DNA of 13,739 bases, taken from the NCBI GenBank assembly GCA_021160245.1, contig JAGHCW010000001.1, positions 1-13,739 of the forward strand. The letters are read 5' to 3'. Made by a program: the position numbers and the translations under genes. Below, in pieces: positions 58 through 13,394 of this stretch. A model generated the notes under the pieces. That model had not been told where the DNA came from and did not search any database. It was given only the letters and a program-made list of their open reading frames with translations. Origin of the DNA: a bacterium (GTDB taxonomy: Bacteria > B130-G9). Positions within the stretch are counted from its first letter, which is position 1. Every line of letters starts with the position of its first letter.

Positions 58-3000
58 TTACTCCGTATCTTCGAGCAGCGACTCGACGGCTTTTTTGAGC
101 TGATCGTCGCTTGTCATGCTGAAATCTTGCTCGGGAGCGTTCTCAACCTCGATGTCTGGCCTTATGCCCATGCCCTCAAGCGTCTCGCCCTCCAGGGCGT
201 AGGCGCCCCATTGAGGCACGATAAAATGGGTGCCGTCCAGGAGCTGTTTCCAGCCGGTGATGTAGATGACCCCACCGGATGTTGGCACGCCGATGAGCTT
301 GCCGAGCCCGAGCTTGCGGAATCCGTACGGGAACGTCTCAGCGTCGCTGTGCGAGTATTCGTTGATCAGAACCGCGACCGGCTTGCGCCAATTGAATCGT
401 GGCTGCATGACCTTCGTCGTTTTGTCTCTGTCCTCGAAGTAGAAGTAGGTGTCTCGCCCAAGAACCGAGAGCAGCTGGTCGTGGAGATTCCCCCCACTGT
501 TGTAGCGAACGTCAACTATGAGCGCCTTCTTATCAGGCGTCGCCTTCACAAGCTCCGACAGAAATTCCTTATAGCTCTTGCGATTCATGCGCCGAACGTG
601 GATATAGCCGACCTTGCCATCGCTCCATTTCTCGACCATTTGCTTGCGAGCTTCGACCCATGACCGATATACTTTGTCGCCAATCGCCCAGAACGGGAGC
701 GCGGTAACGGTTACGAGCTCCCTCTTCCGGCGGCCTTTTCTCTGAACTTCAAGGTCAACCTTCTTGTCCACCTTGCCCCTTAGAATCGCGAATGGATTGG
801 AATCCGAGCCGACATCAACGCCGTCGATTGTGCGGATAACGTCGCCTTTCTTAAGCTTGCTGCCCGGGCGATCGCATGGGCCGTCTGGGACAACATTGGC
901 TATCCGCAGGCCCCTTTTCTTCCAACCGGCGTCGAATCGAAGGCCCAGGTGGCCGGTCTCCTCAAAGTCCGGATCGCGCGGAGACCAAACGCCTATATGC
1001 GAGGCGCGAAGTTCCCCGAGCATTTGCGTCAGGACGATTTGGAATTCCTCGCTCGTGGTCACGGTCTTCAGGAGCGGCCGGTATTTCTCACGCATCTTTG
1101 CCCAATCCACGGCGTGGAACTTGGAGTCATAGAAGTATGTGTTGAATGCGCTCCAGACCTCATCAAACATCTGCGCGCGCTCGGCCTTGTGATCGATCGT
1201 CATCTCGGCGGAGAATGGGATATAGGTTGACATGGCGCTGGGCGTGCCCGTGCGGATTGACCCGCCGCGACTTAGAACGTAGAACTTCTTGCTTTTTGGG
1301 CCCCATACGGTTTGAATCGCGCCTGCTCCGTCGAAGGTCAGCTGGCGAGACGAGCGGCCAAACTCATCAACAATATATAAATCTCTATTGCCCATGGCGT
1401 TCGATGCGAATACGTAGTTCTTGCCGTCGGGCGCAAGCGACATCGCCCAGCAGTTGCCGCTATTTGAACCGACTTTGATTGCTCTCTTTTCTATGTTTTC
1501 GAATTCGATTGGGAGCTTCGGCTTCTCTATTTTCTTTTTTCTCTTGAACACACCGAGCATGCGCTTGAAAACCGAGGGCTTTTTTCGCGTTGTCTTTCGC
1601 TTCTTCGCTTTTTCCTCGATATCACCGGCGCGTCTTTTTCTAAACTTCTCCTCGGCCTTCTTTGTCAGAAAGACCTGCCATATCTCCTGTTTCCCGCTGT
1701 TGGATCCTAGACTGTTTCTGTTAGAGAGAAAGGCTATTCGTTTGCCATCCTTGTCCCAGACCGGCCCGTAGTCCCACGCGGGGTCTTTTGTGATGTTGTG
1801 CTGCTCGCCGCCATCGCTTGCGACGACGAATACCTCTGACTGCCATTCTTCGCACATGCGACTGAAAGCAAGCCAACCCGAATCAGGAGACCAGGCGATT
1901 GACCTGATTAGCGGGCCTTCCGAAAGTCTTTTAGCATTTTTCCCGGCCGTGTCCGCCACCCAGAGCTCGCCTCGGCCCTTCAGGTATGCAATCTGCTTGC
2001 CGTCGGGCGACCACACGGGTGAGTACTCCTCCTCGGGTGAGGCAAGAAGCGACTTCGTTTTGCGGTGTCTGGAGACCGAGAGTCGCTTCTCCTTCTTGTC
2101 GGTCGAGGTCATTACGAATATGTCGCTGTTCCCATTGCGGTCGGAGCAAAAGGCGAGCTTCTTGCCGTCGGGCGACCAGCAAACGTCGCTTTCCCTCGCG
2201 GGGGTATCGGTGAGTCGCATCGTTATCTTGCGGCCCTTTCCAGAAACCCTTCTTGCGAATACCTCGCCTCTAATCACGAACGCAATCTGCTTTGCATCCT
2301 TTGAGAGCGCCATCTCCGTGGCCTCTCGCTCGTAAGTCCTGCGCTCGATGTTATTCTGCTTGATGTCGCTTGGGGCCTCGATCGCAACCTTGCTGCTCTC
2401 ACCGGTCGCGGGATCAACTGTGTATATTTGCCCGTCGAGCTCGCAGACGAGGCGCGAGCCGTCTCTTGCTATCCTGGCATGAACAAGGCCGTCGCTGTCG
2501 AAATGGGTAACCTGAGTGGCCTGAGTGGCCTCGCCTTCCTCGATAGTTTTGACCCACACGTTTGTTACGTCGCCCCGGTCTGAGAGGAAATAGAGCTTCT
2601 CGCCGTCGGGCGACCACATGGGGCAGTCATCTGTGCCATCAAAATCAGTGAGTCGCTTTGCAGGGGAGCCATCAAGCGGCTTGAGCCATAAGTCCCTATC
2701 TGCGCTGCCGCGGTAGCCGCGCCTCCACCACGGGATGTTTCCGCGGACGAACGCCAGCGTAGTCTCATCGGGAGAGATGACACCAGAATACCCGCTACAG
2801 TCGATTACCCGCGTCGGGAGACCGCCGTCGCGGGGCACTGAGAACAACATGGCTGCCCAGACTGGGGCGTTGTATTCGCGGAACGAATTGAAGAGTATGC
2901 TTTCACCGTCTGGCGACCATGATGCGACTTGGTCGGAAGCCGAGTGGAACGTTAGTCTGGTCGGCGTACCGCCTGATGAGGGGACTACGAAAACGTCCGT

Positions 3001-3303
3001 GTTGTGCTCACGTGTCGATGAGAAGGCAATCCAATTGCCGTCTGGTGACCAGCAGGACGGGCCGTCGAATGCCGCGTGAACGGTTAGTCTTTTTGCCGTG
3101 CCGCCTTCCGCGGGAGCTACCCAGACGTCACCCAGATACGCAAAGGCAATTAAGTTGCCGTCCGGCGAGAGCGACGGATACCTAGCTCCGATAGTCGAAT
3201 CTGTACCATCATCGGCTAGGGCGCCATGCTCGAATCCGGCGAAGATGAATAACCCCATAAGCAGGATGATAAATAGTCCAATCGCGGTATTTGTGATTCT
3301 CAT
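58..3303 (-). CDS. Exported tricorn-type serine protease (family S41), copy 1
   Basis: 1081 residues, close to the usual tricorn length. Tricorn proteases trim peptides to short fragments. Seen in order: an N-terminal signal peptide (about 1-30, hydrophobic run ending ALA-DD); two beta-propellers of WD40/TolB-like blades with recurring WSPDG motifs (about 38-690); a helical segment (about 700-765); a PDZ domain (about 785-870); and the S41 catalytic domain (about 895-1065). The tricorn tetrad appears complete: Ser768-His769 (ELRASH), nucleophile Ser986 (SHSDAE) and Glu1043 (TLEGMG). The glycine motif is RYNSGG, where its neighbour copy has RFNGGG. A very basic insert lies at about 548-600. 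The ATG start has GGGGAG five bases upstream and overlaps the stop of the preceding gene by ATGA, so the two are probably translationally coupled. Archaeal tricorn is cytosolic, whereas this one should be periplasmic or secreted. Family call is firm; substrate is unknown. Confidence 0.93.
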   Translation of the reverse strand: MRITNTAIGLFIILLMGLFIFAGFEHGALADDGTDSTIGARYPSLSPDGNLIAFAYLGDVWVAPAEGGTAKRLTVHAAFDGPSCWSPDGNWIAFSSTREHNTDVFVVPSSGGTPTRLTFHSASDQVASWSPDGESILFNSFREYNAPVWAAMLFSVPRDGGLPTRVIDCSGYSGVISPDETTLAFVRGNIPWWRRGYRGSADRDLWLKPLDGSPAKRLTDFDGTDDCPMWSPDGEKLYFLSDRGDVTNVWVKTIEEGEATQATQVTHFDSDGLVHARIARDGSRLVCELDGQIYTVDPATGESSKVAIEAPSDIKQNNIERRTYEREATEMALSKDAKQIAFVIRGEVFARRVSGKGRKITMRLTDTPARESDVCWSPDGKKLAFCSDRNGNSDIFVMTSTDKKEKRLSVSRHRKTKSLLASPEEEYSPVWSPDGKQIAYLKGRGELWVADTAGKNAKRLSEGPLIRSIAWSPDSGWLAFSRMCEEWQSEVFVVASDGGEQHNITKDPAWDYGPVWDKDGKRIAFLSNRNSLGSNSGKQEIWQVFLTKKAEEKFRKRRAGDIEEKAKKRKTTRKKPSVFKRMLGVFKRKKKIEKPKLPIEFENIEKRAIKVGSNSGNCWAMSLAPDGKNYVFASNAMGNRDLYIVDEFGRSSRQLTFDGAGAIQTVWGPKSKKFYVLSRGGSIRTGTPSAMSTYIPFSAEMTIDHKAERAQMFDEVWSAFNTYFYDSKFHAVDWAKMREKYRPLLKTVTTSEEFQIVLTQMLGELRASHIGVWSPRDPDFEETGHLGLRFDAGWKKRGLRIANVVPDGPCDRPGSKLKKGDVIRTIDGVDVGSDSNPFAILRGKVDKKVDLEVQRKGRRKRELVTVTALPFWAIGDKVYRSWVEARKQMVEKWSDGKVGYIHVRRMNRKSYKEFLSELVKATPDKKALIVDVRYNSGGNLHDQLLSVLGRDTYFYFEDRDKTTKVMQPRFNWRKPVAVLINEYSHSDAETFPYGFRKLGLGKLIGVPTSGGVIYITGWKQLLDGTHFIVPQWGAYALEGETLEGMGIRPDIEVENAPEQDFSMTSDDQLKKAVESLLEDTE
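1504..1662 (-). other. Lysine/arginine-rich insert within tricorn copy 1
   Basis: Residues about 548-600 of the protein. They sit in the second propeller between the blade ending VFLTK and the blade starting near ENIEKRA. More than 20 of roughly 55 residues are Lys or Arg, with clusters such as KKRKTTRKK and FKRKKK. The neighbouring paralogue has an acidic segment at the equivalent place. The plus strand looks T-rich here only because of the AAA/AAG lysine codons. Confidence 0.8.
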
Positions 3304-6300
3304 TTGCTCTCCCCACTTTCTTCCGATAGTTGCCGCAGAAGCTCCTCTACGGCCGTCTCAAGCTGCTTGTCGCTTGTAGTGCTAAAATCCTGCTCAGGCG
3401 GATTCTCGACGTATATGTCAGGCTCTATTCCCATGTTCTCAAGCGTCTCACCTTCAAGCGTGAAGCAACCGCTGCTGGGAATCCTGAAATAGCTGCCGTT
3501 GAGCAGCCTGATGCCGCCTGTTCCTATTACCCCTCCGCCCGTTGGACGGCCGACCAGCTTACCGAGACCCAACTTGCGGAACGAATATGGGAATATCTCC
3601 GCATCGCTGAATGAGTATTCATTTGTCATTGTGACCATGGGTTTTCCCGAACGAAAGCGAGGCTCGAACGACTTGATGGCATCATCCTTATCCGCAAAGA
3701 ACATGTAAGTCGGACGCCCTATTGCGGACAGGACCTTGTCGTGAGTGTAGCCGCCGCCGTTGAAGCGCACGTCGATTATCATGGCCTCTTTGTCGGCCAT
3801 CTCGGTCGTCAGCTCGCGCAGGAAGTCCTTGTAGCTGGACATGTCCATCCCCCTTATGTGGACATAGCCGACCCTCCCGTCGCTGAACTTCTCAGCCAAC
3901 TGCTTGCGTGATGCGACCCACATCTTATAGACCTTCGTGTAAATGCCCCAGCGCCAGCTCGCCCTAACCGTGACGGTTCGGCTTTTGCCCTCAAGCTTCT
4001 TGACGACTTTTAGATCAACCAGTTCATTGAGCTTGCCGTCGAGTAGTTTGTAGTAGTTGACGCCCTGACCGACAGCTTCACCATCGATCGCAAGGACTAT
4101 CTCGCCGACCTTGACCTTGCTGCTGGGCTGGTCGCAAGGCCCGTCCGTAATAACGCGTTTCACCTTCAGGCCTTTGCCCGTCCAGGAAGAATCGAAGTCG
4201 AGGCCGAGCTCGCCAGTCTGCGTCTTGTACCAATCGGAATCCCAGGGGCCCCACGCGCCGAGGTGCGACGCCTTCAGCTCGCCCGCCATCTGAACCAGAA
4301 CGCTCAACAAATCCTGATTCGTGGCGACCGCGGCGAGGAACGGTAGGTACTTGTCCCTGATCTTGGGCCAGTCAACGCCGTGGAAGTTCGCATCGTAGAA
4401 GTTAGTATTCAGCGCGCGCCAGGCCTCTAAGAACATCTGCCGGCGCTCCCCAATGTGATCGATCTCCACTTTTGCGGCGAATGGTATTTTCTTAGTCTTG
4501 AATGGTTTGACCCACTTACCGTCATCCTTCAGCCTGGCCCAGGATGGTTGTCCGGAAGCGTTAAAGAACAGCTTATTGTTCTTCGGTCCCCATTGAATGT
4601 CCCGGCTGTATGAATCGACTATTTTGCGGAGTTTTTTGCCGAACTCATTCACGACGAAGACTGCCGGGGAGTCGGCCGCAAGGCTTGCGAATGCGAGTTC
4701 CTTGCCGTCGTGGGACAGGGCGTAATTGTACTCGCTGCCCACCATTCTCGTCAACCGAAGCGCCCGGCGTTCTATTCCGTCGAAGTCAATCTCGACTTTA
4801 GCGGCTGCTGTCTTAGTCTCAGCCTCGTTTTCTTCCGGCTCGTCATCATAGTCAAGATGCTCGTGATACTCTCCAATGCGGTCCAAGTAATCGTCATGAA
4901 GCTCTTTGGTCAGAAAGACCTGCCATATATCATGTTCGCCCCAGTTCTCGACGTCCCCTGCGCGATTTGATGAGAAGATGATCTTGGTGCCGTCCTCAGA
5001 CCATATTGGGCCATGATCAAGCGATGCATGCTGAGTTATGTTGTGCTCCTGACCGTTCTTTAGGGATACTACCCAGATGTCGTATATCCAGGATGCCCCC
5101 TCCCGGTAAAATGCTATCCACTTCGAGTCTGGCGCCCAGTTGATCCCACTTACTCCGGGTCCTTTGGTGAGAAGCCGTTTGCCGGAACCGCCGGCCTTCA
5201 CCAATCTGAGATCGCCCCGGTCAGTTAGATAGGCAATCATCTTGCCATTCGGCGACCACTTGACCCCATATTCCTCCATTTGGGTCGAGGCAATCGCTTT
5301 GATGCTTCGGCGCCTCGATTTGCAGAGCATTGGCTCCTTGTCATCAGTCGATTCCATCAAATAGACGTCCCGCGTTCCGGCCCTGTCAGAGACGAACGCG
5401 AGCTTTTTGCTGTCCGGCGACCAGACCATCCCAGCGTCTCGTGCAGCGTTGCTTGTTAGGCGCAGCGCCTCGCCACCGGTTGCTTTCATGGCGAATATCT
5501 CGCCCCGGACGACGAAGGCGATCTGCTTGCCGTCCGGCGACAGCGCGAAGTCATCAGTCTCGTTTCTGTAGGTTTTTGGCTCGATAGCATTAGCCTTTAG
5601 ATCGCTCGGCGCCGAGATGGCTACTTTCTTCGCGTCGCCGCTTTTGGGGTCTATTGTGTAGAGATAGCCGTTGAGGTAGCAGACCGCCCTAGACCCGTTC
5701 CTGGCCATGTTCGCGTGCGCCGCGCCGTCCGCTTCGAAGTTGGTTATCTTTCTGGCCTCGCCATCTGGAATAGGCATTGCCCAGAGGTTCGTTATCCCGT
5801 CCCGGTCCGAAAGGAAGAATATCTCATCTCCCTCAGGTGACCACATTGGGTCAGTGTCCGTCCAATCCGAGTTTGTGAGGGGGACAGCTGGGTCGCCGCC
5901 GTCCAGCCGCTTCAGCCACAGATCATGGTCGCAACTGCCTCGATACGCTCGCTGCCACCAGCGATTTGTGCCTCGGACAAAGACGACCGAATTCCCGTCT
6001 GGAGAGAGCGCCCCACAGCTTCCGGTGCAGTCCATTACTCTAACCGGCAGTCCCCCGTCGAGCCCCACCTTGTAGATCAGACCCTCTCTGAGCGGCGCGT
6101 TCACCTCGCGATATGAATCGAAGATTATCCACTTGCCGTCGGAGGACCACTCGCGGACGATGTCACCACCTGAGTTGAACGTTAGCCGCCTGGCGACTCC
6201 TCCCGCAGATGGCATCACATAGACGTTGGCGTTACCCTCTCGCCAAGATGTGAATGCAATTGACTTGCCATCCGGCGACCAGGCTGGATAAGAATCATGC

Positions 6301-6530
6301 GCCTCGTGCACGGTTAATCTCGTCGCATCACCACCATCGGCCGGAACAGTCCAAATGTCGCCGAGGTAGGAGAAACAGAGCGTGTCCCCATCTGGCGACA
6401 ACGCGGGTGATGTTGCCCCAAGAAGAGGCGTTGGCTCCGCCGCGGATACTCCCACGACTAATGAAGCCGCAAGCAGTGCGACAAGACCAAAGAACATCAG
6501 GGCCGCGTCGAGTTTTCTTGCCCATCTCAT
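3300..6530 (-). CDS. Exported tricorn-type serine protease (family S41), copy 2
   Basis: 1076 residues, alignable end to end with the downstream copy, so a tandem duplication. Seen in order: signal peptide (about 1-30, LLAASLVVGVSA-AE); two beta-propellers with WSPDG/LSPDG blades (about 38-685); helical segment (about 688-755); PDZ domain (about 775-860); S41 catalytic domain (about 885-1055). The tetrad is complete: Ser755-His756 (ELKASH), nucleophile Ser975 (SFSDAE), Glu1031 (TLENMG), with the glycine motif RFNGGG. The ATG start is supported by GGGAGA about six bases upstream. It lies 48 nt after the transglutaminase-like gene and overlaps the next gene by 4 nt, so it is the middle gene of a likely three-gene operon. 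An acidic linker lies at about 539-585. Expected role: cutting peptides in the periplasm or outside. Specificity cannot be read from the sequence. Confidence 0.93.
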   Translation of the reverse strand: MRWARKLDAALMFFGLVALLAASLVVGVSAAEPTPLLGATSPALSPDGDTLCFSYLGDIWTVPADGGDATRLTVHEAHDSYPAWSPDGKSIAFTSWREGNANVYVMPSAGGVARRLTFNSGGDIVREWSSDGKWIIFDSYREVNAPLREGLIYKVGLDGGLPVRVMDCTGSCGALSPDGNSVVFVRGTNRWWQRAYRGSCDHDLWLKRLDGGDPAVPLTNSDWTDTDPMWSPEGDEIFFLSDRDGITNLWAMPIPDGEARKITNFEADGAAHANMARNGSRAVCYLNGYLYTIDPKSGDAKKVAISAPSDLKANAIEPKTYRNETDDFALSPDGKQIAFVVRGEIFAMKATGGEALRLTSNAARDAGMVWSPDSKKLAFVSDRAGTRDVYLMESTDDKEPMLCKSRRRSIKAIASTQMEEYGVKWSPNGKMIAYLTDRGDLRLVKAGGSGKRLLTKGPGVSGINWAPDSKWIAFYREGASWIYDIWVVSLKNGQEHNITQHASLDHGPIWSEDGTKIIFSSNRAGDVENWGEHDIWQVFLTKELHDDYLDRIGEYHEHLDYDDEPEENEAETKTAAAKVEIDFDGIERRALRLTRMVGSEYNYALSHDGKELAFASLAADSPAVFVVNEFGKKLRKIVDSYSRDIQWGPKNNKLFFNASGQPSWARLKDDGKWVKPFKTKKIPFAAKVEIDHIGERRQMFLEAWRALNTNFYDANFHGVDWPKIRDKYLPFLAAVATNQDLLSVLVQMAGELKASHLGAWGPWDSDWYKTQTGELGLDFDSSWTGKGLKVKRVITDGPCDQPSSKVKVGEIVLAIDGEAVGQGVNYYKLLDGKLNELVDLKVVKKLEGKSRTVTVRASWRWGIYTKVYKMWVASRKQLAEKFSDGRVGYVHIRGMDMSSYKDFLRELTTEMADKEAMIIDVRFNGGGYTHDKVLSAIGRPTYMFFADKDDAIKSFEPRFRSGKPMVTMTNEYSFSDAEIFPYSFRKLGLGKLVGRPTGGGVIGTGGIRLLNGSYFRIPSSGCFTLEGETLENMGIEPDIYVENPPEQDFSTTSDKQLETAVEELLRQLSEESGESK
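4776..4916 (-). other. Acidic linker within tricorn copy 2
   Basis: Residues about 539-585, between two blades of the second propeller. In the core 30 residues, 14 are Asp or Glu (for example DYDDEPEENE). It is the positional counterpart of the strongly basic insert in the other copy, giving the two paralogues opposite charge at the same site. Confidence 0.75.
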
Positions 6531-6578: not shown

Positions 6579-8555
6579 CTATTGTGTGGCGCCTAAGAAC
6601 GTCAGGCTCTCGCACGCCCTCTGAAATATCTTCTTTTGCCATTTTTCATCGCCGTCCGCGCGCAACGTCAAAAGCACATCGCGATCGTAAACCAGCAGGT
6701 AGTGTGTGGTTGCGGAATTGCTTGTCTCGATATACTTGACTGCTGGTCGGCCATCAATGCTCAGATGTCTGACGCCTGAAAACTTCATACCAGACGCTCT
6801 CTTTGCCTGAAGAAAGGACTTGAGGTTGAAGTGAAAGGCAACCGTCTTTGCCTCAATAACTAGCTGCGCTTTCTGCAGTATAGGCACAGTGACGCAGATG
6901 ATCGTTGCCGAAGAAAGCAGCGGGCGCGCTTTCGTAAATGCCGTCCTAGCGGGTTTCTCGATGGCGAAGGAGTAGGCAAAGTTCTCATACCGATTGCCCC
7001 GAAGAATCGAAATACTATTGGGCCCTTCCATGTCGAATGACCTGCCCGCGATGGCAAAGGAAAGGACCTTGAGCTTAATGGCGCCCATGCTCGAGGCGAC
7101 GGGCGCAAGCTCAGCAATTCCAGCAGGCGATGAAAAGCTCGTTTGAGCGAGCTTGATGTGGACGGCGTCCCATTCGTTTCCGCCCCTCTTAAGCGTTGCA
7201 TCCAACGGCATCCACTCGCCAACAAACGCCTCGTTCCAAGCGTGATAGAAGAAATCGCCATCCACGAATAGAAGCCCAGCCACGACCCTTGATGGGATGC
7301 CAACAGAGCGCAGCATCGCGGCCAAGAGAACCGAGTGCTCCGTGCAATCGCCCCTTTTGTTCTCCGCCACTTCTTTCGCGCTTGCGAAGCCCACCGAATA
7401 GTCCTTGAGCGAGATATGATTTCCCACCCAGCGGCATAGTTTCGTCGCTGCCTCGTATGAGGTGTTAGCGCTTCCGACAGCGGTTTTTGACAGCTGAATT
7501 ATCTTAGGATCATCGGACTGTATATAGGTGGAGGGTTTTAGGAATTCGCCCCATTGCTTCCCCTGAAGTCGTGGAGGCAGCGCCTCGTTTATCCCGTATT
7601 TCAGCGGTTTGACACGAAGAACTAATCCTTCCTTCTTTTGGCTCAGCATTTGCACAGCATCTTCCGGTATGAGGCTTGCGGCCTCGCCATCAGGCATGTC
7701 CAGAAGATACCTGGCCTCCGTCGTGATATAGGGATGGGGAATGAATATGCTGCAAGGCGCAGAGAAGAGCTTGATCAGATCGGTTTTCGGGCTCTCCGAT
7801 TCCCGAAGAGCCTGCTGCTTTGTCGAACGCAACGTGACCATAGATAGCCGCTTCGTCTCAGTTTTTAGAATCTCGCCAGCATCGGTACACCACTCAAGCA
7901 TCGGGACAAGCGGCATGATGTCCTGATTAACCCTCAACTTGTTGAGCATCCGCCTCTTGCCGCCTATCTGAACTGCTTCCTTGCCCAGCGACTCAATCCC
8001 AAGCGTGATTATCTTGGACATCTGCGGCTCGAACGTCCGAATATCGTATTTCGTTCCAGAAGAAAATCCCTTTTTGACCATCAGCTTTGTGGCTGCAAAT
8101 GGGCCTATTGCGTCGGGTGGCAGATAGATTTCGTATTGACGTGTCTTGCCGAGAGTTATCTGTTCAATAAAGAGCTTGCCGTCAATGCTCTTGCCCCTGG
8201 ATATCACAGGCTGACCAGACGTAACCATCTTCGAGTAAAAGCTCAATATTTGGCCGGCAGAGTCCTCTACGATCTCGGTGGACATCATCACGCGAGCCGC
8301 CGCATGGCCCCTGATAAGGCTTAGCTCGGCATCGGACAGAGATGCGTAAATGGTCTTGCCCTCGCTCTCGCGCACGATCGTCTGGCTATGGGTATAACCG
8401 ACTTTGGCCCCGGCAATTTGGACGATGTCCCAGCTCTCGTTAAGCGTTAGCTCCCCGCATTGGCCAACGCTAGATGAACACCAAAGGCAAACGAATAGGG
8501 TAAAAAACAAGAACGCAAAATCACGCTTTATCTTGAACACGAATGAGCCTGCCAA
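6579..8555 (-). CDS. Exported transglutaminase-like protein with C-terminal PsbP-like region
   Basis: 658 residues from a TTG start. A GTG five codons later (8540), preceded by GGCAGG at seven bases, is an equally good start. A hydrophobic signal sequence follows at about 13-30. Residues about 40-300 form a beta-rich N-terminal region. The transglutaminase-like core (about 375-470) has the full triad: Cys404 in GDCTEHS, His438 in HAWNEAF and Asp452 in PLDATL, with normal family spacing. The last 100 residues (ending near ACESLTF) resemble the PsbP/DUF1795 fold; this is tentative. Bacterial members of this superfamily are mostly peptidases, amidases or unassigned rather than true cross-linkers. 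The gene is first in an apparent operon with two tricorn proteases, which suggests a role in handling extracytoplasmic protein or peptide. Fold and catalytic residues are clear; the reaction is unknown. Confidence 0.87.
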   Translation of the reverse strand: MAGSFVFKIKRDFAFLFFTLFVCLWCSSSVGQCGELTLNESWDIVQIAGAKVGYTHSQTIVRESEGKTIYASLSDAELSLIRGHAAARVMMSTEIVEDSAGQILSFYSKMVTSGQPVISRGKSIDGKLFIEQITLGKTRQYEIYLPPDAIGPFAATKLMVKKGFSSGTKYDIRTFEPQMSKIITLGIESLGKEAVQIGGKRRMLNKLRVNQDIMPLVPMLEWCTDAGEILKTETKRLSMVTLRSTKQQALRESESPKTDLIKLFSAPCSIFIPHPYITTEARYLLDMPDGEAASLIPEDAVQMLSQKKEGLVLRVKPLKYGINEALPPRLQGKQWGEFLKPSTYIQSDDPKIIQLSKTAVGSANTSYEAATKLCRWVGNHISLKDYSVGFASAKEVAENKRGDCTEHSVLLAAMLRSVGIPSRVVAGLLFVDGDFFYHAWNEAFVGEWMPLDATLKRGGNEWDAVHIKLAQTSFSSPAGIAELAPVASSMGAIKLKVLSFAIAGRSFDMEGPNSISILRGNRYENFAYSFAIEKPARTAFTKARPLLSSATIICVTVPILQKAQLVIEAKTVAFHFNLKSFLQAKRASGMKFSGVRHLSIDGRPAVKYIETSNSATTHYLLVYDRDVLLTLRADGDEKWQKKIFQRACESLTFLGATQ

Positions 8556-9177: not shown

Positions 9178-11493
9178 TTACCTCAAATGGGCGTTCGGCG
9201 CAGACGGATTCGATAACCCTCGCGATGAATTGAGCGGCAAAAGCGAGATGTCCGGCATAGCCAGAGCGGACACCGGGCCAAATGCGGTCGTTGCGCCCGC
9301 TACGTCGATTTCAACCAAATAGTAATAGTATCTTGTGCCCGCCCCAATTTTGCGGTCGACGAAGTGATAGGATGCTCCATTCGCCGGTCCGCCTTTCGGC
9401 TCTATCAGCCCGGAGACCGCATAGAAATCCTTCCCGGCGCCTGATTTACGGTAGATGATGAAGCCGGCCGTCTCAATCTCCACACCCGTGCGCCAATCCA
9501 GACTAATGGAGCCCAGCCTGGCCGAGGCGGTGAACTCATCCAGCTCTATATATGTATTGCCAGAGCCAAGAAGCTTCGTCTGAGGCGCCCCGTATAGGTT
9601 GAAGTCCATGAGGTTCATCCAATACCAATCCTCGTCCGGCGCCGTCTCGCCCTTAGCGTCATAGAGCGCCTCACCGGCACTGTAGTTCGCATAGTCCGTC
9701 AGTAGCCGGAAGTAGTGATAGCCGATGTTCTGCAGGCATCCAGAATCAGATGGGTAGAAGTTCCAGTCGTCGGCCCAGGAGACGCGAGAGGCTGAGACTG
9801 TTCCGATTGCGCCTCGTTTGAGGAGCGCGTAGCCCAAATTTCCGCTACTCTCTGGGTAGCCGTTGAGGCAGCTCCCCTGGTATGCGAAAGCCGGCTTTGA
9901 ATCGTCCAGATCGGAGCAATATGACGTGCTGAAGAGGGTGCCCTCGGAGCAGGAGTAGGAACCGCTGGAATAGCCGATAGCAGTGTATGTGGAGCTGCCA
10001 TGGCCGAGCCAGAAGACGATGCCAAATGGATTAGCAGACCATCTGTCCTTGACCTTCCCACTCTGAAGCCTCTCGTCTGGGTCGAAGGCGCTGTAGCATC
10101 CGTCGCCCTTGCGCTGATACATCTCCCAATCGCCAAAGCCCCTGTCCTGCAGATAATTCTGCTTCATGTAGTGACCTACGTAGGACCCGTCGATGAAGTC
10201 GATCACAAAGCCCATCGGCAGCAGCACGTCCTTCCGCCAAGATAGATCGCCAGATGCGGTTTCATAAGCGATGATCTTCTCGAGAATCCCATCAAGCGTC
10301 GCATAGTCGTCGTTATAGACGGGGATTCTGCCAACATAGACCTCCGGGTCGAAGTCAACGCCCCCATCCTCGTTATCGCCATAAAATTCCCCGTAATACC
10401 CGTTCCCGTTTATATCCCAGTCACCAGTCAGGTCCGAATAATAGTAATCAGTTGGGGATCTATCGTAGCCCGGGTCAGTTGGGGCATTGCGGCGTGGCCA
10501 GCACATCTTCATCGGGACGTCGCCGGTGCTTGGATTGGGATCGCCGATAAGCAGGACAAATTGAATGCTTCGTGCGGTGTAATGGTCGATTAGCCACTGG
10601 CGAATCTTCTCGGCTGTGCCATGGGGCGGCGGCGTGTTTGTGTCGTCATAAGCGCCATAACCGCCTCCCGGCGTGGTCTCCGTCAGGACCAGAATATCGT
10701 ACTGAAGGCTCTCAAGGTGAGCAATATAGGTCGCGAGCTCCTGGCTGCCACCCACAACTGCATCGCTCGTTATTATCACGCAAACGCTCGAATCATCCAG
10801 AGGCCTCAGCCCGCCGACGCCCCTCGGCTCATACCATTTCCGCGCCTCGTGATAATTTAAGAACTTCGACCTGGCCTTGTGGTCGAAGACGCAGTCTGAG
10901 AGCAGCGCCTCGTCAAGCAACGAGGCATCCCGCTCGTAGTGAAGAACGAGGCTGACCTCGCGCGCGATGTTCAGCATCCCGGAGACCGGATTGAAGCTTA
11001 TCGGCGTGAACTTCACCTTGGCGTATCTGTACTTCCGCATCTGTCCAGACCTTAGAAGCTCGACCGGCTGAGCTGGATAGGACTGATCGCTGCCGTAAAT
11101 GTCCATGTCTTTTCCGTCAACGATATTGGTCGCATCGCCCCAGAGGAATATGTCTCGCCCGTCAACTCGCGTTACGGCCGGCGGTCTGGGGGCTATGTCG
11201 TATTGCCCAGGAATCTCGGTCTGGGCCGCCCTAACGAGCTCCAACCTCAACGAGCCAGGGACGGTGTCGGGCGGAATGGCTACAAGGAATACTCTTCGAG
11301 GCAGCGCGGGCGAGCCCGGGCTACCGGTGTTTGAGAAACCATCCATTCGAATAAGATGCGAGTCCGGTCTCACCTCGTCGAAGGAGAACTCCCCCGCCTG
11401 AAGCGAGAATTGCTGCACGTCGGCGACAACCGGGTTTGAGATTGCAGCAAAGACAAACAGGAGTAACAACAATGGGCGATAGAAACTAGACAC
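9178..11493 (-). CDS. Exported gingipain-type cysteine peptidase (family C25)
   Basis: 771 residues from the GTG at 11493. The frame stays open upstream to an ATG at 11622, but GTG is preferred: GGGAGGG lies four bases before it and a clean signal peptide (about 1-24, ending PVVA-DV) begins there. Seen in order: a C25-type propeptide region (about 25-215); the catalytic domain (about 230-600) with His498 in WLGHGSS and Cys542 in YQGSCLNG, the expected His-Cys dyad; an Asp/Gly-rich stretch (about 340-375, GDWDINGNGYYGEFYGDNEDGG) that could bind calcium; and a fibronectin-III-like domain (about 645-755). No type IX sorting domain, sortase motif or anchor is visible at the C-terminus, so it is probably released or periplasmic. 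It should cleave proteins after propeptide removal. Gingipains cut after Arg or Lys, but specificity here cannot be predicted. Confidence 0.88.
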   Translation of the reverse strand: MSSFYRPLLLLLFVFAAISNPVVADVQQFSLQAGEFSFDEVRPDSHLIRMDGFSNTGSPGSPALPRRVFLVAIPPDTVPGSLRLELVRAAQTEIPGQYDIAPRPPAVTRVDGRDIFLWGDATNIVDGKDMDIYGSDQSYPAQPVELLRSGQMRKYRYAKVKFTPISFNPVSGMLNIAREVSLVLHYERDASLLDEALLSDCVFDHKARSKFLNYHEARKWYEPRGVGGLRPLDDSSVCVIITSDAVVGGSQELATYIAHLESLQYDILVLTETTPGGGYGAYDDTNTPPPHGTAEKIRQWLIDHYTARSIQFVLLIGDPNPSTGDVPMKMCWPRRNAPTDPGYDRSPTDYYYSDLTGDWDINGNGYYGEFYGDNEDGGVDFDPEVYVGRIPVYNDDYATLDGILEKIIAYETASGDLSWRKDVLLPMGFVIDFIDGSYVGHYMKQNYLQDRGFGDWEMYQRKGDGCYSAFDPDERLQSGKVKDRWSANPFGIVFWLGHGSSTYTAIGYSSGSYSCSEGTLFSTSYCSDLDDSKPAFAYQGSCLNGYPESSGNLGYALLKRGAIGTVSASRVSWADDWNFYPSDSGCLQNIGYHYFRLLTDYANYSAGEALYDAKGETAPDEDWYWMNLMDFNLYGAPQTKLLGSGNTYIELDEFTASARLGSISLDWRTGVEIETAGFIIYRKSGAGKDFYAVSGLIEPKGGPANGASYHFVDRKIGAGTRYYYYLVEIDVAGATTAFGPVSALAMPDISLLPLNSSRGLSNPSAPNAHLR

Positions 11494-11497
11494 AATA

Positions 11498-11504
11498 CCC
11501 TCCC
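11498..11504 (-). promoter_or_regulatory. Ribosome binding site fixing the GTG start of the C25 gene
   Basis: GGGAGGG on the minus strand, four bases before GTG at 11493. No comparable site precedes the in-frame ATG at 11622. This supports a 771-residue product instead of 814. Confidence 0.75.
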
Positions 11505-11525
11505 ATTTTCTTAGGCATATTGTTG

Positions 11526-11542
11526 GGGCGCGCGATGCGCCC
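11526..11542 (-). promoter_or_regulatory. GC-rich stem-loop in the C25 leader
   Basis: GGGCGC (11526-11531) pairs with GCGCCC (11537-11542) around a 5-base loop, about 22 nt upstream of the ribosome binding site. It could stabilise or regulate the leader RNA. No known riboswitch was recognised. Confidence 0.35.
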
Positions 11543-11628
11543 TCAAGAACAACGAATAACGGTGGGAATTCGACTGGGAATGACGCAGCCCCCGGATGGG
11601 CGCACTGAATCAATCCTAGCAATTTCCA

Positions 11629-11862: not shown

Positions 11863-11887
11863 CAATCTGATCCGGAAAATCAGATTG
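11863..11887 (-). terminator. Stem-loop spanning the mscS stop codon
   Basis: CAATCTGAT (11863-11871) and ATCAGATTG (11879-11887) form a perfect 9-bp stem with a 7-base loop. The mscS TGA stop (11880-11882) lies inside the stem. No T-run follows on the minus strand, so it may protect the mRNA 3' end or act as a factor-dependent terminator. Confidence 0.4.
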
Positions 11888-13394
11888 CAGGACGCTCCAT
11901 AAAGATCGTCTGAGTGGGATAGGCGAACTCAATGCCCTCTTTGCTGAACTGTTCAACTATCGAGAGATTCACCTGCTGCTGGACGTCCATGTATGTGGCG
12001 TAGTTATTGGTGTTAAGGTAATAGACGATCTCGAAATCAAGGCTAAAGGCCCCGAATTGGGAGAAATGAACTCGGTCGGCTTCTGCGACCGGGATGTCGT
12101 TTATGATGGTCTTAATCATGTCAGGGATTGCCCTCAGCTTTGAGGCGCCGGTTTGGTATGTGACACCGATTGAGAATGAGACTCGTCTGCGGGTCATTTT
12201 CTTGAAGTTCTGAATGACCTTGCCCCTCATCTCTCGGTTTGAGATGACGATCTCTTCGCCGCGAAGGGCCTGAAGCCGCGTGCTGTAAAAGCCGACCTTC
12301 TTGACGGTTCCTTTCAGATCGCCGACATATACGTAGTCGCCGAGCTCAAATGGCTTGTCGAGGTAGATGGAAAAAGATGTGAGGAGATCTGCCAGGACGT
12401 TTTGCAGAGCGATGGCTGCGATTACACCACTGACGCCCAAACTGGTGAGTAGAGGGCTTATGTTAATGTCGGATACATCGAGCAGGAGAAAAAAGGCAAT
12501 CACCCAGAGCAAGCCGTTGGCGACTCGCCGGGCGGTATTGACGACCCTTCGATGAACCTCAACGTCCGGTCGGCCTGTGGATTGGCCCGCATACCATTTG
12601 GCTATCAGGTTGACTATTCTGATAGCGAGCAATGTGGCAATGAATACTGCCAATGCGCCGGCGCCCTTCCGAATGTGGCCGTGATATGGGGCAATCGCGT
12701 CAATGGCGACCAGGGCGTAATATAGGCTGGTGATGAGAACAAGGGCGAAGGCCGGCGCCCTCGCTGTCTTGACCACAAGCCCAGCCAATTCCGGCGGCTT
12801 TGTGTCCGTTCGCAGCATCCACCGCGTTAGGATGTCCACGACCCGGATGACGAACATCGCTATTGTAACGATGCTCAAGACCTGCGCGACCCGGCAGATG
12901 GAAGAGAGATGAGGGAGAATATATGGCACGCAGAGCAGCGCGTAATAGATGACAGCAATGAAGATGAGGGCGAATGTGGGGGCTCTTGCGGTCTTGACAA
13001 TTAGTCCCCATAGAGTGCCCTTGTGGTCCTCGTCCTCAAGGAACCATTTTGTTATCAGGTCGATAATTCTGAATACGAAGAATCCCACGATGAGCACGGC
13101 CATGATCTCGATGCTCTTGAGCCAATAGATGTAATAAGCCCCTATTGACGGCAAGCAGAGCAGCGCGTAGTTGAGGCCGAGAAGCAAGAGCAGAGCGAAT
13201 GCCGGTATACGCGTCGCCCGAAGAATGCGCTTGTCCAAAACGGAGTCGAATCTCTTCAGAAGTTTTGGCAAGTATCTGCTGAGCGCGATGAGAACAACGA
13301 GCGCTAAGAGGACGAATGCGGCCAGGACTATGCCGGCCACTAAGAACTCTCCATACTGGGCTATCTTATCTGCGAGAAACTTCCCTGCTTGCAC
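11880..13394 (-). CDS. MscS-family mechanosensitive ion channel with repeated N-terminal helix pairs
   Basis: 504 residues from a GTG start with GGGAG eight bases upstream. MscS channels open under membrane tension and release solutes during hypo-osmotic shock. The C-terminal half is typical: pore helix and beta domain at about 317-390 (SLGVSGVIAAIALQNVLADL, then KPFELGDYVYV and EIVISN), followed by the cytoplasmic alpha/beta domain to about 500. The N-terminal half holds a first helix (about 17-38) and three tandem units of about 75 residues (60-134, 135-209, 210-286). Each opens with TAR-x-P-x-FAL and has two membrane helices ending near FVIRIVDLITKW. A degenerate fourth unit (TARRVANGLL, from 287) leads into the pore. 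The protein is thus longer than E. coli MscS (286 aa). It starts 66 nt after the lysyl-tRNA synthetase stop and may share its transcript. Family call is firm. Confidence 0.92.
   Translation of the reverse strand: MQAGKFLADKIAQYGEFLVAGIVLAAFVLLALVVLIALSRYLPKLLKRFDSVLDKRILRATRIPAFALLLLLGLNYALLCLPSIGAYYIYWLKSIEIMAVLIVGFFVFRIIDLITKWFLEDEDHKGTLWGLIVKTARAPTFALIFIAVIYYALLCVPYILPHLSSICRVAQVLSIVTIAMFVIRVVDILTRWMLRTDTKPPELAGLVVKTARAPAFALVLITSLYYALVAIDAIAPYHGHIRKGAGALAVFIATLLAIRIVNLIAKWYAGQSTGRPDVEVHRRVVNTARRVANGLLWVIAFFLLLDVSDINISPLLTSLGVSGVIAAIALQNVLADLLTSFSIYLDKPFELGDYVYVGDLKGTVKKVGFYSTRLQALRGEEIVISNREMRGKVIQNFKKMTRRRVSFSIGVTYQTGASKLRAIPDMIKTIINDIPVAEADRVHFSQFGAFSLDFEIVYYLNTNNYATYMDVQQQVNLSIVEQFSKEGIEFAYPTQTIFMERPAI
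12537..13217 (-). repeat. Three tandem coding repeats of a two-helix membrane unit in mscS
   Basis: Residues about 60-134, 135-209 and 210-286. Shared positions: the start ATRIPAFAL / TARAPTFAL / TARAPAFAL; then NYALL / YYALL / YYALV; then FRIIDLITKW / IRVVDILTRW / IRIVNLIAKW. The period is about 225 nt. Unit boundaries are approximate. Confidence 0.8.

Follow-up and report, generated by a model that had tools for sequence, protein, structure and literature searches.

An inherited basic linker in one of two tandem tricorn-type proteases of a small bacterial phylum

The window, a stretch of 13,739 nucleotides of bacterial DNA, encodes two neighbouring tricorn-type proteases, A and B, with linkers of opposite net charge at the same site. 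The initial annotation had drawn attention to this opposition and the observation is confirmed, yet the acidity of A is ordinary for the family and the new part is the arm of the B clade, as the basic linker of B is exceptional and constitutes a real, inherited oddity of this small bacterial phylum. Bacterial tricorns are widespread, and in the literature that we searched little attention has been paid to how they assemble, where they are located and what their substrates are; no paper found on tricorn protease and propeller had a title on bacterial tandem tricorns, and further searches yielded nothing on this linker.

Two tandem tricorn proteases with conserved catalytic residues

Gene A (3300..6530), the upstream copy with the acidic linker, encodes a tricorn-type protease of 1076 amino acids identified by its ORF, Pfam and the family profile, and gene B (58..3303), the downstream copy with the basic linker, encodes one of 1081 amino acids identified by its ORF, Pfam and AlphaFold. 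Both ORFs, like all features given below, lie on the minus strand; what the initial annotation called copy 1 is B, transcriptionally downstream, and its copy 2 is A. The tandem neighbours are 49% identical in pairwise alignment. Each matches PD40, Tricorn_C1, PDZ_Tricorn and Peptidase_S41 above the curated cut-offs within a single chain, and this set of PD40 propellers, Tricorn_C1, PDZ and Peptidase_S41 places both among the tricorn proteases. The tricorn of T. acidophilum (PDB 1k32, 1n6d; family S41) is a sequence match for A and for B and shares with them the order b6 propeller, b7 propeller, C1, PDZ and C2, and 1k32 matches the family profile over its full length. The AlphaFold model of B (pLDDT 90) matched 1k32 over 961 residues (VIA Z 37.7, rmsd 4.1; Foldseek E 4.3e-62), a fold match that refers to the B model only; the model of A has a mean pLDDT of 90.7. 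Beyond 1k32, the Foldseek and VIA lists for the B model held just single propellers or single domains and were uninformative on function.

Residues S745, H746, S965 and E1023 of the T. acidophilum enzyme are all conserved. In B, S768-H769 (997..1002) correspond to S745-H746, S986-D987 (343..348) to the nucleophile S965 and D966, and E1043 (175..177) to E1023; the counterparts in A are S755-H756 (4263..4268), S975-D976 (3603..3608) and E1031 (3438..3440). The full catalytic tetrad previously assigned to both copies is thus borne out by the alignment (S768/H769/S986/E1043 in B, S755/H756/S975/E1031 in A), and the two active sites are shown here, at the level of aligned residues, to be intact. 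No orthologue of the window's phylum that covers the sites departs from this Ser/His/Ser/Glu tetrad; one cut-off gene (C143 of genome G002) stops short of the Glu. In the alignment a gap stands opposite R131-R132 of 1n6d, and D936 is not conserved in the window proteins. Unlike the T. acidophilum enzyme, A and B are tandem paralogues with a longer, highly charged linker and with N-termini that resemble signal peptides as judged by eye, and both are probably exported.

Across the whole alignment just eight differences between A and B are fixed, two of them within the catalytic domain. At one fixed position of that domain, nine residues N-terminal of the catalytic Glu (A residue 1022, B residue 1034), a Trp is present in 11 of 11 outgroup rows, a Cys in every A and an Ala in every B covered.

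The genes had also been described as translationally coupled. In the window the stop of A and the start of B do overlap by 4 bases, ATGA (3300..3303), but the relatives do not share this arrangement: the second gene of G001 and of G003 is set off by a short gap and carries a GGAGG of its own, and in G002 it starts farther off from the first. We therefore reject translational coupling as a conserved trait.

The two linkers and their family background

Linker A (residues 541-585, 4776..4910) comprises 45 residues with 4 K/R and 17 D/E, net -13, and linker B (residues 547-603, 1495..1665) comprises 57 residues with 24 K/R and 8 D/E, net +16. In each protein the linker is flanked by IWQVFLT on one side and I(E/D)F..IE(K/R)RA on the other, in agreement with the initial placement of oppositely charged segments at one point of the second propeller; the count of 14 acidic residues in 30 is correct for residues 542-571 of A. 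The rest of the two proteins is nearly equal in charge (A -5, B -3). In the AlphaFold models linker A begins with an ordered helix (residues 542-559, 4854..4907) and continues into an acidic tail (residues 560-584, 4779..4853) of low confidence, with pLDDT means of 47-76 over 10-residue blocks. Linker B begins with a helical pair (residues 548-558 and 561-570, 1594..1662), of which the first is confident and the second is not (block means of 97 for 541-550, 92 for 551-560 and 54 for 561-570), followed by a Lys/Arg-rich tail (residues 571-600, 1504..1593) of low confidence, pLDDT about 50. Inside this tail lies a hydrophobic patch, VFKRMLGVF (residues 578-586, 1546..1572), at which AlphaFold predicts a helix of only 4 residues. 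Judging by the models, the acidic tail of A and the basic tail of B are probably disordered.

From our reading of the blade repeat, with strands taken from the AlphaFold models, the linker would be the C-D hairpin of blade 5 of the seven-bladed (b7) propeller. By general propeller topology the C-D hairpin is an outer element of the blade. The T. acidophilum tricorn has a loop of its own at the alignment position of the linker, in a profile alignment that is weak there. The charged segment is the family's own variable linker and no special insert. The DNA of linker B is purine-rich (68%), and an origin of the basic linker by frameshift was rejected, as frames +1 and +2 contain stops and yield no sequence resembling A.

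Linkers were measured in 173 homologues drawn from the phylum of the window, from related candidate phyla and from a broad sample of GTDB; they are of at least 15 residues and aligned at both ends, so that the set cannot show how frequently a linker is absent. They average 49 residues, 49% of them charged, with a mean net charge of -5.1 (SD 6.6, median -3) and a range of +16 to -27, extending to -34 in tandem pairs elsewhere. Against this background linker A is not rare, since 22 of the 173 reach -13 or lower, mainly in single genes of the phylum of G071. The single-copy tricorns of that phylum (about 40% identical) share the architecture and linker site of A and B; unlike the window, one such orthologue per genome was found in the search and the linkers are only acidic, mostly -12 to -27. 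As such linkers occur in single-copy orthologues, the acidity of A needs no basic partner. L173-L191 are examples of single-copy tricorns of this phylum with strongly acidic linkers and no basic partner.

Linker B, in contrast, is the most basic of the 173. The next two, +9 and +8, also belong to the B clade, and the highest value outside the clade is +4. Linker charge tracks the charge of the remaining protein (r = 0.77, n = 165, the rows not being independent), and from this line window B departs by +4.8 SD, B of G002 contig C320 by +4.5, B of G001 by +2.5 and window A by -2.3 SD. Whole-protein or proteome charge was accordingly rejected as the cause of linker B, though it explains much of the family. 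The survey provides a measured background for judging claims of charged inserts in other tricorns.

Duplication history and the charge contrast across pairs

The window's phylum was sampled by four genomes, G000 (the window), G001, G002 and G003, and A and B genes are present in all four. In a tree built from the C-terminal half, with the linker left out, the A clade has support of 98/92, the B clade 99/97 and the joint group of 10 rows 100/100, and the nearest outgroups are from outside the phylum; the duplication is specific to the window's phylum. The pair is intact on a single contig in G001 and adjacent in G000 too, while G002 C238 and G003 C367 each hold an A followed by a second gene truncated by the contig end. 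G002 has two A and two B copies, and it seems that the pair itself was duplicated or that an older second pair was retained.

The net charges of the A/B linkers in the phylum are -13/+16 in G000, -6/+8 in G001, and -5/+9 and -1/+2 in G002, where both pairings are inferred across separate contigs whose ends do not overlap. Since C320 and the second gene of C238 are distinct (56% over 247 columns), C361 was assigned to C238 and C320 to C143; with both ends of the loop trimmed, the A linker of C238 is 0 instead of -1. The A linker of G003 is -2, and its B linker is absent from the contigs found. Within the phylum the contrast is thus kept in orthologous pairs, every B linker with data being positive and every A negative; the loss of the contrast that the initial annotation had named as a refutation was not seen there.

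Outside the phylum it is absent. Both copies have acidic linkers in each of six tandem pairs from elsewhere (-34/-20, -32/-18, -12/-21, -17/-20, -6/-6 and -4/-5), which form four distinct sets because two of the pairs are orthologous to two others. As in the window, the pairs found in the phylum of G019 and in an acidobacterium (L073) consist of two adjacent full-length tricorns, yet both linkers are acidic. The lowest linker charges seen, -34 and -32, belong to L203 and L204 (phylum of G019), and the proteins concerned are strongly acidic as a whole. Of 58 genomes from the phylum of G028, 55 have tricorns, with no adjacent pairs among the matches listed. A basic/acidic contrast as a general rule for tandem tricorns is rejected. 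With the contrast kept in sign in four pairs, two of them inferred, from a single phylum and absent in six pairs elsewhere, the earlier interpretation, in which complementary charge on co-produced paralogues pointed to mixed oligomers or to gating of substrates, is supported only in part. The contrast persists within the phylum; it is not a property of tandem tricorns, and the acidity of A is found in single-copy genes.

Possible roles of the basic arm and the surrounding genes

All four B linkers carry a Lys/Arg-rich run beside a short hydrophobic patch (VFKRMLGVF in the window, RFWDFLLR in G001, KLFDFLKKW in G002 C320 and TLLEILGMK in G002 C361), and in a score for local basic segments they occupy ranks 1-4 of 157. 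A scan for 18-residue stretches of net +4 or more with at least four hydrophobic residues was passed by five linkers, four from the B clade and a fifth (L144) in a poorly aligned end; as these thresholds were set after viewing the sequences, the count describes the pattern and is no independent test. A basic run beside a hydrophobic patch, as expected of a membrane-docking basic-amphipathic segment, was found in four of four B-clade linkers under the same post hoc thresholds, and by its composition the B segment resembles a docking arm more closely than a simple charged spacer.

We tentatively propose that a basic-amphipathic arm, gained by B, serves to dock the protein on an anionic surface, either the envelope or the arm of A. 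A tandem duplication within the phylum would have given rise to A and B, both with intact tetrads and signal peptide-like N-termini. A would have retained the ordinary acidic form of the family's variable linker, whereas linker B would have acquired its Lys/Arg-rich tail, together with the short hydrophobic patch, on the stem of the B clade. This tail may tether B to an anionic surface of the envelope, for which anionic lipid, LPS and A's acidic arm are candidates, and would leave catalysis unchanged. LpxC and Omp85 were found in the window's genome, which is therefore probably that of a diderm with an LPS pathway, and an anionic LPS-bearing envelope is a plausible docking surface. Export, disorder and docking are all inferred. 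Against docking, the B-clade sample consists of four linkers from three genomes that trace to one event on the tree, and the linker of its basal member, G002 C361, is only +2. The short helix predicted at the patch and the purine-rich DNA of the B linker also weigh against it, and charged low-complexity tails drift quickly. The pair offers a clean comparison, with identical fold and tetrad and a basic, partly hydrophobic arm in B alone.

It is less probable, though still to be weighed, that the linker has no function and that a tolerant, disordered, low-complexity segment had its charge flipped in B by drift or composition. The wide variation of linker length and charge in the family would fit such tolerance, as would a linker charge that mostly follows that of the remaining protein and a b7 propeller that, at 39% identity between A and B, is less conserved than any other domain (48-57%). 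Nevertheless, the linker is positive in each of the four B genes with data although these are only about 43-63% identical, each has a hydrophobic patch that is not expected to survive drift in a charged tail, genome composition should shift A and B alike rather than oppositely, and a simple frameshift finds no support in the stops of the other two frames.

More doubtful is a pairing of the A arm with the B arm, by which the co-produced copies would build mixed oligomers or assemblies of AB order. This reading overlaps with docking, as the anionic surface contacted by B could be the acidic arm of A. Opposite signs occur in all four pairs of the phylum, the genes are adjacent in G000 and G001, and an A and a cut-off second gene share a contig in G002 and G003. 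The T. acidophilum tricorn is itself oligomeric, a D3 hexamer of six subunits (PMC2651629). The A and B charges scale inversely across the four pairs (r = -0.98, nominal p 0.02, n = 4), in related sequences of which half of the pairings are inferred; swapping the pairing of the separate G002 contigs reduces the relation to r = -0.65, p 0.35, and we regard it as a lead only. Two further points speak against pairing: similar acidic arms occur in single-copy genes, and in tandem pairs elsewhere neither copy has a basic linker, both being acidic. Hetero-oligomers are possible. It is improbable that the arrangement goes as far as an obligate two-component tricorn in which co-evolving complementary arms specify mixed assembly in an exported, envelope-located machine; if true, this would be a hetero-oligomeric tricorn.

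Least likely, and in our view remote, is that the arms gate oppositely charged substrates into two enzymes of different diets, since the linker, though it sits in the second, seven-bladed propeller, reads as an outer blade element and so few differences between A and B are fixed. What favours it is that a beta-propeller has been described as substrate-guiding in tricorn (PMC3808539).

Turning from docking to the neighbouring genes, a transglutaminase-like protein is encoded directly upstream of A (6579..8555). A Transglut_core gene precedes A also in G001 (L124:355-2316) and in G002 C143 (L125:3098-5137) and is a conserved neighbour. Farther upstream lie a gingipain-type peptidase C25 with a propeptide domain by Pfam (9178-11622), which is probably a further exported protease in the window, and an MscS-type mechanosensitive channel (11880-13394) with a long N-terminal part of similar-looking hydrophobic segments.
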